Shown here piece after piece: positions 4,134 through 33,680 of a DNA stretch of 46,403 nucleotides. The position numbers were made by a program, and so were the translations under genes. Origin of the DNA: Actinomycetota bacterium (lineage in GTDB: Bacteria > Actinomycetota > Actinomycetes > Actinomycetales > Microbacteriaceae); assembly GCA_018268515.1 (NCBI GenBank), contig JAFDWK010000044.1, positions 1-46,403 on the forward strand, read 5' to 3'. Within the stretch, counting starts at the first letter, position 1; each line of letters begins with the position of its first letter. The notes under the pieces were generated by a model. That model was given only the letters and a program-made list of their open reading frames with translations, was not told where the DNA came from and ran no database searches.

Positions 4134-5120
4134 TCAGCCGAGGATCCCCGCGCGCACCTGCGCGAGTGTGCCCTCATCCGCCTCGACGCCGCGGTGTCGC
4201 AGGGCGAGCATCGTCGCCCCGGCCGCGCCGCTGTCCACCGGGACGAACGGCTGATCGCCGAACGCCGCGGCGAAGTGCTGCCGCAGCAGCTGCTGCGGCG
4301 CACCGGCCCTGGCCACGATGCTGCCGCCCACCACGACGGGGCCCGGGCCCGCCTGCACGAGTGCGACCGTGCGCACGAGCTGCTCCCCCGCGCCGGCCAG
4401 GATGCGCCGCGCCACCGGGTCGCCGGCATCGGCCGCGTCGAAGACCAGCGGGGCGAGGCCGGCGAGCTGCACCGGCCGCTGCGCGTAGAGCGCGCGGATC
4501 AGCTGCTCGAGACCTGCGGGCCGTCCGTCCCCGCCTCGGGCATGGGCACCGTCCGCGGCCACTCCGGCCGCCTGCAGCACCAGAGGCGTCAGCGCCGTTC
4601 CCGGTCCGAGCCCGTCCAGCTCGTCCACCGCCGCAGCCGCCGCACGCCGCCCGATCCAGAAGCCGCTGCCCCGGTCGCCGAGCAGCCATCCCAGTCCATC
4701 CGCGGTCGCGACGATCCGGCCGTCCTCTACGCGCACCGCGCTCGCCCCGGTGCCGCACACGACGCCGTAGCCGACCGGATCGACCGCGCCGCTCGCATAC
4801 ATCGCCAGCAGATCCGACTCGAACGCAAGCCCGCCCGCGAACCCGTCCTCCCGCAGGGGATCCAGGATCCAGTCCGACACGCCGCCGCGGGCGTCGTGCC
4901 CGGCCATCGCGATGACGATCCCCGCCACGTCCGACAGCTCTGCCCCGGCGGCCGCGAGCGCGGTGCCGATCGCTCGCCGCACCTCGGCGAGCGCGATGGG
5001 AGATCCCGATGAGGTGGGGTTTCCGCTGCCTCCGCGGCCGAACCCGAGGACGCGTCCCTCACGCGTCGCGAGCACCGCTCTCGTGGACGTCCCACCCGCA
5101 TCCACCCCGATCACGAGCAC
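4134..5120 (-). CDS. BadF/BadG-type sugar kinase, probable N-acetylglucosamine kinase
   Basis: Actin-fold (ASKHA) ATP-dependent kinase of the BadF/BadG/BcrA/BcrD family that includes N-acetylglucosamine kinases. The phosphate-1 motif is at the extreme N-terminus (DAGGTSTRAVL, residues 7-17), the phosphate-2/adenosine elements follow as CGTGASAVR and VVVGGSIVARAG, and DRGSGFWIGRRA is typical of this family. About 328 aa, normal size. I chose the GTG at 5120, which puts the motif a few residues from the start as in relatives; a TTG at 5132 would add four residues. It is divergent from the RpiR regulator and ngc transport genes, so phosphorylation of imported GlcNAc is the likely role. Substrate is inferred from neighbours, not from residues. 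Confidence 0.82.
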   Translation of the reverse strand: MLVIGVDAGGTSTRAVLATREGRVLGFGRGGSGNPTSSGSPIALAEVRRAIGTALAAAGAELSDVAGIVIAMAGHDARGGVSDWILDPLREDGFAGGLAFESDLLAMYASGAVDPVGYGVVCGTGASAVRVEDGRIVATADGLGWLLGDRGSGFWIGRRAAAAAVDELDGLGPGTALTPLVLQAAGVAADGAHARGGDGRPAGLEQLIRALYAQRPVQLAGLAPLVFDAADAGDPVARRILAGAGEQLVRTVALVQAGPGPVVVGGSIVARAGAPQQLLRQHFAAAFGDQPFVPVDSGAAGATMLALRHRGVEADEGTLAQVRAGILG

Positions 5121-29592: not shown

Positions 29593-30915
29593 ATGACCGC
29601 CGCGGAGAACTGGCGCTTCGAGACCAAGCAGATCCACTCGGGCGCCGCGCCCGACCCCGTCACCAAGGCGCGCGCCACGCCGATCTACCAGACCACGTCG
29701 TACGTGTTCGACAACGCGGACCACGCGGCGAACCTGTTCGCCCTGGCCGAGTTCGGCAACATCTACACCCGGATCCAGAACCCGACGCAGGACGTGCTGG
29801 AGCAGCGCCTCGCCGCGCTCGAGGGCGGCACCGGCGCGCTCGTGCTCGCTTCCGGCCAGGCTGCCTCGACCTTCGCGATCCTCAACATCGCGCAGGCCGG
29901 CGACCACTTCGTCTCGAGCTCGTCGATCTACGGCGGCACGTACAACCTGTTCAAGTACACGCTCGCCAAGCTCGGCATCGAGGTCACCTTCGTCGAGAAC
30001 CAGGACGACCTCGAGGAGTGGCGACGCGCCGTGCGCCCGAACACGAAGCTGTTCTTCGCGGAGACCATCGGCAACCCGCAGGTCAACGTGCTCGACATCC
30101 GCGGCATCGCCGACATCGCGCACGCCGCCGGCGTGCCCCTGATCGCCGACAACACGATCGCGACCCCGTACCTGATCCGCCCGTTCGAGCACGGCGCCGA
30201 CATCGTGGTGCACTCGGTCACCAAGTTCCTCGGCGGCCACGGCACCACCATCGGCGGCGCGATCATCGACGGCGGTTCCTTCGCCTGGTCGCAGAACGTG
30301 GAGAAGTTCCCGGGCCTCACCGAGCCGGACCCCTCCTACCACGGCGCGTCCTACACCACCGCGGTCGGCGATGGCCTCGCCTACATCATCAAGGCCCGCG
30401 TGCAGCTGCTCCGCGACCTCGGCTCGGCCATCGCTCCGCAGAGCGCCTGGAACCTCATCCAGGGCATCGAGACGCTGTCGCTGCGCATCGAGCGCCACGT
30501 GCAGAACGCGCAGGAGATCGCCGAGTGGCTGGACGCGCGCGACGACGTCGCCGCGGTCAACTACTCGGGCCTGCCCACCTCGCCCTGGTACGCGGCGGCG
30601 AACACCTACGCGCCGAAGGGCGTCGGCGCCGTGCTGTCCTTCGAGCTGAAGGGCGGCGTCGAGGCCGGCCGCGAGTTCGTGAACAACCTCGAGCTGTTCA
30701 GCCACCTCGCCAACATCGGCGACGTGCGCTCGCTGGTCATCCACCCCGCCTCCACCACGCACGCCCAGCTCACCCCGGAGCAGCAGCTCACCGCGGGCGT
30801 CACCCCGGGCCTGGTGCGCCTGTCGGTGGGACTGGAGAACATCGACGATCTGAAGGCCGACCTCGATCAGGCCCTCGCCGCGGCGCGCAAGGTGACCGAG
30901 GCCGCCCGCGCCTGA
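29593..30915 (+). CDS. metY: O-acetylhomoserine aminocarboxypropyltransferase
   Basis: PLP-dependent enzyme that joins O-acetylhomoserine with sulfide to give homocysteine in methionine synthesis. 440 aa, normal length. PLP-binding Lys211 lies in HSVTKFLGGHG; other marks are TPIYQTTSYVF, YTRIQNPTQDVLEQRLAALE and SSSIYGGTYNLF, with the C-terminal LVRLSVGLENIDDL. The long form of Cys/Met enzymes (with an insert around PGLTEPDPSYHG) distinguishes it from MetB/MetZ. AAGGAG precedes the ATG. It ends in a UUCG hairpin, so it is likely transcribed apart from the distant metX. Confidence 0.96.
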   Translation: MTAAENWRFETKQIHSGAAPDPVTKARATPIYQTTSYVFDNADHAANLFALAEFGNIYTRIQNPTQDVLEQRLAALEGGTGALVLASGQAASTFAILNIAQAGDHFVSSSSIYGGTYNLFKYTLAKLGIEVTFVENQDDLEEWRRAVRPNTKLFFAETIGNPQVNVLDIRGIADIAHAAGVPLIADNTIATPYLIRPFEHGADIVVHSVTKFLGGHGTTIGGAIIDGGSFAWSQNVEKFPGLTEPDPSYHGASYTTAVGDGLAYIIKARVQLLRDLGSAIAPQSAWNLIQGIETLSLRIERHVQNAQEIAEWLDARDDVAAVNYSGLPTSPWYAAANTYAPKGVGAVLSFELKGGVEAGREFVNNLELFSHLANIGDVRSLVIHPASTTHAQLTPEQQLTAGVTPGLVRLSVGLENIDDLKADLDQALAAARKVTEAARA

Positions 30916-30938: not shown

Positions 30939-30972
30939 GGAATGCCCCGGGTCTTCGGATCCGGGGCATTCC
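30939..30972 (+). terminator. UUCG-capped hairpin after metY
   Basis: A 15-bp stem (30939-30953 with 30958-30972, one G-U pair) capped by the very stable C(UUCG)G tetraloop, 24 nt after the metY stop. No U-tract. Confidence 0.85.
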
Positions 30973-31259
30973 CGCGTCCCTGCGGAATCGGCTGCCCCGT
31001 CGCTGCTGCGCGAGTCCCTGTCGCGCTGTCGCTGCGCCGCTGCGCCGGCTCGGCCTGTTCACCCCCCTCCACCGCCAATACCCCCACTGGCCGGCGCCGA
31101 TACGGGGAGGTAATGCCGCTCCGGAGGGGTGAACGCGCGCCGAATCGACGCAGGCCGCCGGGCGTGCGATCGTCCTCCACAGCCCGCGCAGGGCCGCGTT
31201 CGTGCACGGAGTACGTGCGCGCGCCCCAGGGATGCCAGCCCCGCGCCCAAGCTGGGTTC
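30973..31259. other. intergenic region with repeat copy 1
   Basis: Between the metY hairpin and the AbiEi-like gene. It contains the first 78-bp palindromic repeat. Left of it is a low-complexity run of CGCTG/CTGCG units (31001-31050). Nothing else recognisable. Confidence 0.5.
31057..31134. repeat. 78-bp palindromic repeat, copy 1
   Basis: Begins GTTCACCCCC and ends GGGGTGAAC. It aligns without gaps to copy 2 (32321-32398) at 59 of 78 positions by hand count. Its two arms are also complementary to each other (22 of 31 positions), with a shared half-site of the form GTTCACCCC then CGCC/CGGC then ACTACC/ATTACC. It lies about 125 nt before the AbiEi-like gene. Confidence 0.85.
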
Positions 31260-32243
31260 ATGGGCACGTCCATCACGATCGCTCGCGCGAGGGAGATCCT
31301 CCTCTCTCGAGAGGAGCTTCTCCTCGCAGGATGCAGCGAGCGGCAGATCCGCACACGGGTCGCCGAGGGCACACTCGTGCGGATTCGGCGCGATCGATAC
31401 GCTTTGACCGCTGATCTCACCGCCCTCTGGCCGGAAGACCGCCATCTGATCGACGTGGTCGCGATGCATCTGAACGGACGCGGATCCGATCCGGTCTTCT
31501 GGGGTCCTTCCGCCGCGGTGCTGCACAGGCTCCCGCTCTATCGGCTGAATCCGAAACACGTGCACACAGCGGTGCTCGGATCACGGCACGCGCGCACGAG
31601 AGCCGGCGTCGTCCAGCATGATGTCCTCCTGCCGGAGGACGACATCACGCAGGTCGAAGGGATCCGGTGCACGTCGCTCGACCGCACGATCCTCGACCTC
31701 GCCTGCACCGCGACCCCGGAAGCAGCGGTCGGTGTCGCCGATGCGGCGCTGCGTCGGGAGTGCGTCGATGGGCACCATCATGACGAGCAGCACGCCGAGC
31801 AGTGGCACTCCCGCATGTCGGAACGCGCCCAGCAGAGCCGCCTGCATGGGATCCGCCGGGCCAGGAACCTGATCGCATTCGCCGACGGGCGCGCCCAGCT
31901 ACCCGGGGAGAGCGTCAGCCGCCTGCAGCTGCATCGACTGGGTTTCCGCGACATGATGCTGCAGGTGCACATCGTCGGCGCCGCAGGCAACGACTACTGG
32001 CTGGACTTCGGCTTTCCCGGATCCCGGGTCTTCGGCGAGTTCGACGGTCAGGCCAAATACCTCGACGACGACCTGCGCGGAGGTCGTGCTCTGGCGCAGG
32101 TCCTGCTCGACGAGAAACGGCGCGAAGACGATGTCCGCGGTGTCACGGGGTGGCGCTTCGCTCGCTGGGAGGACCGGCACATCCGCACCGCGGAGACGCT
32201 CGGCCGACGCCTCTCCGCCTTCGGCCTGCGGCCGGCAGCATGA
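31260..32243 (+). CDS. AbiEi-type HTH protein with nuclease-like C-terminus
   Basis: 327-aa protein. Residues about 8-60 (REILLSREELLLAGCSERQI then GTLVRIRRDRYAL) resemble the winged-helix N-terminal domain of AbiEi-type antitoxins. Residues 78-165 match the following AbiEi-type region (FWGPSAAVLHRLPL, TSLDRTILDLAC). The C-terminus (about 217-307) looks like a PD-(D/E)XK nuclease of the DUF559/Vsr sort: GESVSRLQL, LDFGFP (Asp249), EFDGQAK (Glu260, Lys266), then DEKRREDDVRGVTGWRFARW. No AbiEii-type toxin gene is adjacent. The gene separates metY from metX and is bracketed by two 78-bp palindromes. Function unknown; defence, repair or mobility are possible. Confidence 0.75.
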   Translation: MGTSITIARAREILLSREELLLAGCSERQIRTRVAEGTLVRIRRDRYALTADLTALWPEDRHLIDVVAMHLNGRGSDPVFWGPSAAVLHRLPLYRLNPKHVHTAVLGSRHARTRAGVVQHDVLLPEDDITQVEGIRCTSLDRTILDLACTATPEAAVGVADAALRRECVDGHHHDEQHAEQWHSRMSERAQQSRLHGIRRARNLIAFADGRAQLPGESVSRLQLHRLGFRDMMLQVHIVGAAGNDYWLDFGFPGSRVFGEFDGQAKYLDDDLRGGRALAQVLLDEKRREDDVRGVTGWRFARWEDRHIRTAETLGRRLSAFGLRPAA

Positions 32244-32320
32244 GGCGCGCAGTCAGCGGGCGCCTGCGGTCAGCGGAGTTGCGCGCACGATCCGCGTGGT
32301 GCGCGTGAGAGCCCGTTCAC

Positions 32321-32398
32321 GTTCACCCCCTGATACCGCCACTACCCCCACTCGGCGACGCCGGTGGAGGGAGGTAGTGACGGCACGAGGGGGTGAAC
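32321..32398. repeat. 78-bp palindromic repeat, copy 2
   Basis: Begins GTTCACCCCCT and ends AGGGGGTGAAC, preceded by an extra GTTCAC. Arms match in reverse complement at 24 of 30 positions around an 18-nt centre; consensus half-site GTTCACCCCCT, 4 variable bases, then CCGCCACTACC. Same orientation, same length and about 76% identity with copy 1. It lies 77 nt after the AbiEi-like gene and 73 nt before metX. Confidence 0.88.
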
Positions 32399-32471
32399 AG
32401 CATGCGTCCGCGCGGCACTCCGGATCCGTAACCTTCCCCCGCTTCGGATCGCCACCCGGGAGAATGGATCC

Positions 32472-33680
32472 ATGGACTGGCAGACGACCTCGGAGGACAC
32501 GGTGCCCTCGGCGCGCGTGTCGGAGGCGGATGCCCGCCTGCTGCGCGCGCGTCCCCCGGCCACCGGCGCCTGGCGCGACGGGGATCCGGCCGGAGACCGC
32601 CGGTTCGAGGCGTTCGGGCCGTTCCGCACCGAGGGCGGCGCCGAACTGCCGCTGATCCGCGTCGCGTATGAGAGCTGGGGGCGCCTGAACGCGGCGCGCG
32701 ACAACGCCATCCTGATCCTGCACGCCCTCACCGGCGACAGCCACGTGGTCGGCCAGGCGGGGCATGGGCATGCGACCAGCGGCTGGTGGGGCGAGATCGT
32801 CGGCCCCGGCTGCGCGATCGACACCGACGAGTGGTTCGTGATCGCCCCGAACATGCTCGGCGGGTGCCAGGGATCCACGGGGCCGGCGAGCATCGCCCCG
32901 GACGGCTACGAGTGGGCCTCCCGCTTCCCGTACCTCACGATCCGCGACCAGGTCGCCGCGCAGGTGCTGCTGGCGGACGCCCTCGGCATCGACCGGTGGG
33001 GGGCGGTGATCGGCGGATCCATGGGCGGCATGCACGCCCTGGAATGGGCCGTGGGCCACCCCGAGCGCGTCGAACGGCTCGCGATCCTGTCCTCTCCCCC
33101 GGTCACCACCGCCGATCAGCTCGCGCTGAACTTCGTGCAGCTGGAGACGGTGCGGATGGATCCGCGCTTCGCCGGCGGCGAGTACTACGACGCGCCGGTC
33201 GGCGAGGGACCGCACCGCGGGCTCGCCCTGGCGCGGCGCATGGCGCTGCTGAACTACCGCAGCCCGATCGAACTGAACCAGCGGTTCCAGCGATCCTGGC
33301 AGTCCGATGTGTCGCCGCTCGGCCAGGGCGGCCGCTATGCGGTGGAGAGCTACCTCGACTTCCACGGCAACAAGTTCACCCGGCGTTTCGACGCGAACAG
33401 CTACCTCACGCTCGTCGAGGCGATGAACTCGCACGACATCGGGCGCGATCGCGGCGGCGTCGAGGACGCGCTGAGGCGAGTGACCGCGACCGCGCTCGTG
33501 CTCGGGATCAACACCGACCGGCTGTTCCCCGTGGACGGCCAGCACCGCATCGCCCGCGGCATCCCGCACACGCTGGACGGGAACGAGGCCGTGGTGCTCG
33601 CGAGCGACTTCGGCCACGACGGCTTCCTCATCGAGACGGACGAGGTCGGCGCGCACCTGCGGCGTCTGCTCCGGGCCTGA
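32472..33680 (+). CDS. metX: homoserine O-acetyltransferase
   Basis: Alpha/beta-hydrolase-fold acyltransferase, 402 aa, transferring acetyl from acetyl-CoA to homoserine; the product feeds MetY. Nucleophile Ser183 in GGSMGGMHALEWA, Asp in GINTDRLFPVDGQ and His in SDFGHDGFLIETDE form the triad. MetX family landmarks YESWGRLNAARDNAIL and NMLGGCQGSTGPAS are present. The ATG is 6 nt after GAGAAT, a weak -10-like sequence; a GGGAG lies 11 nt upstream. It converges with the Nudix gene with a 6-nt gap. Confidence 0.95.
   Translation: MDWQTTSEDTVPSARVSEADARLLRARPPATGAWRDGDPAGDRRFEAFGPFRTEGGAELPLIRVAYESWGRLNAARDNAILILHALTGDSHVVGQAGHGHATSGWWGEIVGPGCAIDTDEWFVIAPNMLGGCQGSTGPASIAPDGYEWASRFPYLTIRDQVAAQVLLADALGIDRWGAVIGGSMGGMHALEWAVGHPERVERLAILSSPPVTTADQLALNFVQLETVRMDPRFAGGEYYDAPVGEGPHRGLALARRMALLNYRSPIELNQRFQRSWQSDVSPLGQGGRYAVESYLDFHGNKFTRRFDANSYLTLVEAMNSHDIGRDRGGVEDALRRVTATALVLGINTDRLFPVDGQHRIARGIPHTLDGNEAVVLASDFGHDGFLIETDEVGAHLRRLLRA

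Follow-up and report, generated by a model that had tools for sequence, protein, structure and literature searches.

A gene of a Microbacteriaceae genome lies between two matched palindromes, which are probably the cognate sites of the protein that it encodes. We propose a REPtron-like system in which a winged-helix nuclease, other than an HUH enzyme, is partnered with palindromes of four half-sites. The two brackets appear to be best explained as a pair of sites that are recognised by the product of the enclosed gene. The gene was analysed in the window, the whole stretch of 46,403 nucleotides, and in genomes of the same genus; the features of the window are listed in Table 1.

Table 1. Features of the bracketed unit and its surroundings in the window
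Feature	Position	Strand	Remarks
Left element, 84-bp frame	31054..31137	.	Visible palindrome 31057-31134; frame from 38 aligned copies
Left element, half-sites	~31054-31068, 31073-31087, 31104-31118, 31123-31137		Central CG 31095-31096
Right element, 84-bp frame	32318..32401	.	Visible palindrome 32321-32398
Right element, half-sites	~32318-32332, 32337-32351, 32368-32382, 32387-32401		Central CG 32359-32360
Bracketed gene, 327 aa	31260..32243	+	AbiEi-type winged helix (N-terminal, ~residues 11-50) and C-terminal Vsr/DUF559-like nuclease signature (putative)
Nuclease-like signature codons	31908..32057	+	E217 ... D249 ... E260-x-D262-G ... K266
metY-like left neighbour (presumed name)	29593..30915	+	Host context, outside the unit
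metX-like right neighbour (presumed name)	32472..33680	+	Host context, outside the unit

Matched palindromes bracket the gene

The original prediction of two 78-bp copies on either side of the gene was confirmed by a gap-free alignment with 59 of 78 positions identical, a value reached by 0 of 20,000 base shuffles. Both copies are palindromic, as had been claimed: their 29-nt arms pair at 72% (copy 1) and 83% (copy 2), and over 39 positions the pairing amounts to 26 and 28, respectively. Upon folding, copy 2 stands far above dinucleotide shuffles, with z values of -6.7 and -10.0 for the two strands, whereas copy 1 differs from them only modestly (-1.8 and -2.6). When delimited as in the relatives, the element of the window extends to 84 bp and comprises four half-sites with a 19-bp period and a central CG. 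Four related half-sites per element had been predicted and were indeed found, although the formula proposed for them proved approximate only. In the window's genome, an offset of 19 bp ranks first for both arms of copy 1 and for one of the two arms of a third copy, but for no arm of copy 2. The right element begins 78 bp after the stop codon of the bracketed gene, and a separate hairpin follows the metY-like gene at 30939-30972. An Rfam scan returned only matches of microRNA type and small-RNA matches, all of them under the gathering scores.

The protein family was found in 241 of 295 genus genomes (E 1e-20). Among 95 units, a palindrome scoring at least 16 is present in the left flank of 73, in the right flank of 62 and in both flanks of 49, compared to 2 of 281 control windows; some of the palindromes counted are ordinary hairpins (those to the left of the gene in L025 and L035, for instance), and the window's own left element scores below 16 and is not counted. 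Motif-free local alignment of the left against the right flank reached a score of 35 or more in 76 of the 91 units used (L018 and L019 were excluded as distant, and two units had short flanks), whereas 76 of 1082 mismatched flank pairs and none of 87 pairs of distant windows did so. A clear left-right match is absent in 15 of the 91. Matched flanks recur across the units of the genus, which bears out the earlier claim that the palindromes belong together and to the enclosed gene, and the bracketing arrangement is general in the genus.

The comparison was widened to 27 DUF559-type loci, which comprise 24 loci of a phylum sample (one from the window's own genome) and three of Tsukamurella. The left-right score is at least 31, the 99th percentile of mismatched pairs, in 12 of them and lower in 15. 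Two of the 12 matched loci hold short DUF559 genes of another type, and L240, the locus of the window's genome, falls into the unmatched group of 15 despite being flanked by palindromes. From the phylum sample, 24 of 30 loci were used (four had unreliable ORFs and two had short flanks), as were three of the five Tsukamurella matches. One DUF559-type gene outside the genus (L260) is flanked by inverted repeats of more than 200 bp (score 298), far above the usual length. In addition, four genus homologues (G252:C28, G040:C1, G002:C1 and G096:C1) contain one TGA inside the family match, possibly owing to gene decay or to an effect of the match end.

The bracketed gene encodes a putative winged-helix nuclease

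PADLOC models of AbiEi match the window protein with a best E of 4e-14, in matches confined to residues 7-194 and thus short of the nuclease-like part, and Pfam AbiEi_4 scores it at 18.4 bits, below the cut-off of 25. The Pfam scan gave no nuclease-domain match for this protein. Its C-terminal part carries an E/D/E/D/K pattern, which we take to be the signature of Vsr/DUF559 nucleases and which is kept in the 93 of 95 homologues taken into the alignment: E217 in 100%, D249 in 99%, E260 in 100%, D262 in 100% and K266 in 99%. The same kind of acidic signature presumably marks the Vsr, DUF559 and REase_MTES_1575 families, the last of which is named after a Microbacterium protein. Among relatives of like layout, three proteins (L019 from the window's genome, L248 and L251) pass the Pfam cut-offs of both DUF559 and AbiEi_4, and the L211 protein lies above that of DUF559; the proteins of L016, L017, L209 and L210 gave no nuclease match in the Pfam scan.

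A structure predicted from a five-sequence alignment has a mean pLDDT of 48.5 and is confident only at about residues 11-50, and solved structures gave no sequence match up to E 1. In Pfam and NCBIfam, no transposase family lies above its cut-off, the best NCBIfam match being a transposase model at 15.4 bits against 296, and no HUH Y1 transposase family was found in the scans of the gene product. Within the window, no AbiEii-type partner toxin lies between the brackets, which are preceded by the gene that we take to be metY and followed by the one that we take to be metX. A search of 50,697 phage records revealed no relative of the protein at E 1e-5.

The elements share a geometry

In a comparison across letterings, 216 of 250 arms have their best half-site offset at exactly 19 bp, and a central CG is present in 94 of the 105 even-centred elements (from 125 in total, the 20 odd-centred ones being left out). 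The dispersed copies of GCCCCCTC type measure 84 bp and consist of a 15-bp half-site, 4 bp, a second half-site and a 16-bp centre, followed by the inverse. Their edge is sharp, with the information dropping from 1.45 to 0.01 bits, and a target duplication of at least 3 bases was found in 0 of 38 copies (the edge and duplication analysis covered 38 of 42 dispersed sites). Three other patterns fetched 30 loci, of which 29 show the 19-bp offset, several of them being one site read on either strand; control palindromes elsewhere in those 30 loci show it in 3 of 16 arms. The window copies start with GTTC, the GCCCCCTC-type copies with CGTC and other letterings differently, and the ends are symmetric and paired. 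The geometry is fixed while the letters change, and it is the geometry, not the letters, that the elements have in common.

Additional half-sites in tandem, with the period of 19 bp retained, are present in some elements (L011:6015-6115 and G185:C1:2101137-2101201), suggesting that half-site arrays can grow by one half-site.

Dispersed copies and their presumed cognate nuclease

The pattern GTTCACCCC-N55..65-GGGGTGAAC is present three times in the window's genome, always with 60 bases between the ends, and gave 0 matches there when read backwards. The third copy, again of exactly 78 bp, is solitary (G000:C60:21500-21577) and lies about 170 bp beyond the end of a gene that is presumably purQ-like. 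A search of 149 genus genomes found the GTTCACCCC/GGGGTGAAC pattern in two, the window's own genome and one other, whose single match bears by eye no resemblance to the element. By the strict pattern, the window's own lettering has one dispersed copy.

Further repeats and related genes were observed in the same genome. On contig C23, a second matched palindrome pair (L295:1013-1091 and 2165-2243) surrounds a shortened family member of 219 aa, which matches only profile positions 35-190; this locus may be a decayed unit. On contig C60, about 2.5 kb from the third copy, four tandem repeats of about 22 bp (GGTGGTGAAACGGCGAG..., L008 at ~4890-4990) are arranged head to tail and apparently resemble half-sites of a further lettering. 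Two further DUF559-type genes are located on C24 (L292) and C21 (L293), the latter with CGGAG-type repeats of about 20-bp period on one side of the gene. Several related units that differ in lettering seem to be present in this genome.

Other letterings were counted as matching arms, with the own copies of the units included. Double half-sites of GAGGGGGC type number 25, 14, 14 and 10 in the four genomes of the sample in which the nuclease between metY and metX carries this lettering, 0 in 256 of 290 genomes, and 1 to 5 in 30 others, where some are simple tandem repeats and some are true elements (G068, G098, G185 and G256). Full elements of GCCCCCTC type occur in G068, G098, G185 and G256 as well, so the letterings are not strictly private. 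Three more patterns were each tried on 11 genomes. The GAAACCCCT type has 19 matches in G274 and 0 in its ten relatives; the TTTCCCTCC type has 19 in G266, 5 in G256, 3 in G110 and 0 in eight; and the ACCCCCAC type has 8 in G110, 4 in G075, 2 in G266, 1 in G256 and 0 in seven. In G075, the ACCCCCAC pattern read backwards gave 5 matches and thus exceeded the 4 real ones, of which two are parts of a second unit. The letters of dispersed copies mostly follow the genome's own nuclease, with exceptions, and the off-diagonal sites may be relics or parts of other units. According to the original prediction, elements scattered without relation to such genes would be general intergenic palindromes; dispersed copies do exist, but this reading mostly falls away because their lettering largely tracks the nuclease of the genome.

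The 38 classifiable copies of the lettering counted first (GAGGGGGC type) comprise 21 between convergent genes, 17 between same-direction genes and 0 between divergent genes (simple gene caller; 4 of 42 rows unclassed, one inside a possibly spurious frame). Nine of the 40 loci behind the 42 sites (L200-L208) come from genomes outside the four with the matching metY-metX nuclease. Comparison of identities by protein region revealed no region that stands out as a predictor of the lettering or as the DNA-reading domain.

Vertical inheritance and turnover in place

All 52 pairs of nucleases with at least 70% identity have a neighbouring gene family in common, and 43 of them on both sides; at 60-70% identity this holds for 133 of 183 pairs, the pairs not being independent of each other. 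The gene is vertically inherited, and the unit does not appear to be a travelling transposon, because a common neighbour gene accompanies all of the more similar nucleases. One syntenic group comprises eleven units, with metY beside nine, metX beside nine and both beside seven; in the remaining units a contig or locus edge intervenes. These eleven units carry five letterings, in which the left and right elements have changed together. Between the window's genome and six relatives, MetX is 94-97% identical and the nuclease 55-65%.

At an orthologous intergenic site (site A), where both neighbours are conserved, the element has the ACCCCCAC lettering in G110 and the GCCCCCTC lettering in G114 and G264. 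Here the element persists with changed letters, which appear to differ with the local nuclease. A second orthologous site, in G075 and G274, gives a similar picture, with a poorer alignment and with the G075 copy one half-site short. Point changes under selection may explain such re-lettering without copying, because the centre of site A is identical at 13 of 16 positions between G110 and G264 (a level that 2.7% of pairs reach), whereas the comparison of G110 with G114 (9 of 16) does not show it. One G114 copy is absent at the corresponding place in G110 and G000. Comparison with empty sites gave no single-base insertion borders, the intergenic DNA being too diverged.

Among 30 metX loci, three hold the gene, 14 have metY and metX only 104-193 bp apart, and three are not judgeable. 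At least three of the 14 gene-less intervals contain a solo palindrome (by eye), and the solo element of L078 sits where other genomes have the hairpin after metY. Seven loci (L060, L064-L067, L073 and L077) have about 1.1-1.2 kb of other DNA between metY and metX. In L056, L059 and L071, a different, oppositely oriented nuclease-like gene lies between other matched palindromes (by eye) in the metY-metX interval; one of these three proteins was scanned and matches REase_MTES_1575 with an E of 8e-7, under its cut-off. Because these three loci hold a different nuclease-like gene at that chromosomal spot, units of this kind may preferentially occupy the metY-metX interval.

Alternative explanations

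The main rival holds that the palindromes are regulator binding sites without cutting. An AbiEi-like regulator or nucleoid protein would bind all copies and influence chromosome structure or the ends of transcripts; autoregulation would fall to the upstream copy, the nuclease fold would be structural or rarely used, and the letters would shift by selected point mutation. The putative AbiEi-type winged helix and the possible in-place point change at site A agree with such a protein. Moreover, known AbiEi proteins bind inverted repeats, an example being Rv2827c of M. tuberculosis, which according to PMC7319586 binds four 23-bp repeats upstream of its own gene. The placement of copies between convergent or same-direction genes (21 and 17 of 38) also speaks for it, but none lies between divergent genes, where regulators are expected. 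The catalytic-type residues, kept at 99-100% in 93 homologues, are unexpected for a pure regulator, and autoregulation needs no downstream copy that is matched to the upstream one. We consider this explanation unlikely on balance. The suggestion of paired operators for the enclosed gene is too narrow, because copies also lie downstream of the gene and between other genes.

The unit might also be an anti-phage or intragenomic-conflict device, in which invading DNA would be the target of the nuclease and the palindromes would regulate or curb the enzyme. We regard this as improbable: the PADLOC match to AbiEi and the low identity of the nuclease compared to MetX, as expected for a fast-evolving conflict protein, speak for it, but the PADLOC matches miss the nuclease-like part, the brackets of the window leave no room for a partner toxin, and the phage records hold no relative at the threshold given above. 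In the AbiE type IV toxin-antitoxin system, the AbiEi protein has an N-terminal winged helix, which is predicted here too, with inverted-repeat sites upstream of the gene (PMC7319586); unlike AbiE, the unit in the window is without a toxin partner and has an added nuclease-like part, a second, downstream site and dispersed sites. An AbiE pair was rejected, the toxin gene being missing in the window and a downstream site being present.

The original prediction had also considered the palindromes as ends of a small mobile unit, a transposon-like cassette whose miniature non-autonomous relatives would be the dispersed copies. Matched ends, gene-less copies with sharp 84-bp edges, the 14 of 30 genomes in which metY adjoins metX and the gene is missing, a solo palindrome being visible by eye in at least three, and the G114 copy missing at the same place in G110 and G000 would all be in keeping with this. 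The mobile reading is nevertheless already disfavoured, and we judge it highly improbable: the neighbouring gene is kept in every pair of the more similar nucleases, target duplications are absent from the 38 dispersed copies, no transposase family lies above cut-off, the letters differ at the orthologous site, and each bracket is itself a complete palindrome.

Ordinary terminators or RNA hairpins standing on both sides by chance, which the original prediction had rightly set aside, are scarcely credible and already disfavoured, since the sites between convergent or same-direction genes, the good folding of copy 2 and the position of the L078 element would suit them, but a hairpin needs neither the fixed 19-bp direct repeat in each arm nor the central CG, other palindromes of the same loci rarely show that offset (3 of 16 arms), and a separate hairpin already follows metY; termination could be a side effect. 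Integron attC sites were rejected, as their end boxes do not fit.

A proposed nuclease with cognate palindromes

For a nuclease partnered with cognate palindromes, we propose the following course. The winged helix would read the half-site of about 15 bp, and several subunits would sit on the four half-sites with their fixed 19-bp spacing, and the nuclease domain would act on the central R-CG-Y or close to it. Nicks or breaks made there would be repaired from other copies, so that left, right and dispersed copies would stay alike, and such repair would occasionally seed new elements. We infer from these comparisons that the protein binds its sites, that it cuts them and that cutting drives copying; of these, the repair-driven copying between elements is held with less confidence than the partnership itself. 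The proposed re-lettering in place would be comparable to the joint turnover of PRDM9 and its hotspots.

The closest known parallel is the REPtron, composed of REP palindromes and the RAYT (TnpA-REP) HUH enzyme (PMC8266576, PMC6006769 and PMC3733652). Both have an enzyme gene flanked by cognate palindromes, with copies dispersed between genes of the same genome, several enzyme-repeat pairs per genome that co-vary, and vertical inheritance of the enzyme gene. They differ in the enzyme, which here would combine a winged helix with a Vsr/DUF559-like part in place of an HUH Y1 transposase, and in the repeat, which measures 78-84 bp with four half-sites at 19 bp, compared to a hairpin of 20-50 nt. 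The REPtron repeat ends on one side in a GTAG (or CGTC) tag that is unpaired, whereas the ends here are symmetric and paired; moreover, the letters here turn over while the geometry stays. CGTC is the tag of a REP group said in PMC3733652 to lack a dedicated transposase. The GCCCCCTC-type copies start with CGTC too, but there it is paired, present at both ends and absent from other letterings, which makes it a lead only. We do not file the system as a REPtron, because it has neither the defining HUH enzyme nor the tag nor the repeat size. For the Vsr, DUF559 and REase_MTES_1575 families, the available text of PMC3710099 describes domain fusions in conflict proteins and mentions no palindromes or dispersed sites. 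A literature search, mainly of the open literature, found no paper that describes palindromes next to actinobacterial genes of DUF559 or AbiEi-like type, and for this reason we take the system as undescribed.

We see about even chances that the same holds across Actinomycetota, as an HUH-independent REPtron-like system in which fast-evolving winged-helix nucleases would each own a genome-wide palindrome family, and a change of specificity would re-letter the sites in place. How REP-like palindromes spread and why hosts retain them is an open question, so far treated with HUH enzymes in the literature available to us, and a nuclease unrelated to them but organised in the genome in the same way would add an independent example. 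The many natural letterings offer ready-made matched and mismatched protein-site pairs for the study of specificity, cutting and copying. If true, the proposal would assign a function to a large set of genes in actinobacteria that are now labelled AbiEi-like or DUF559.
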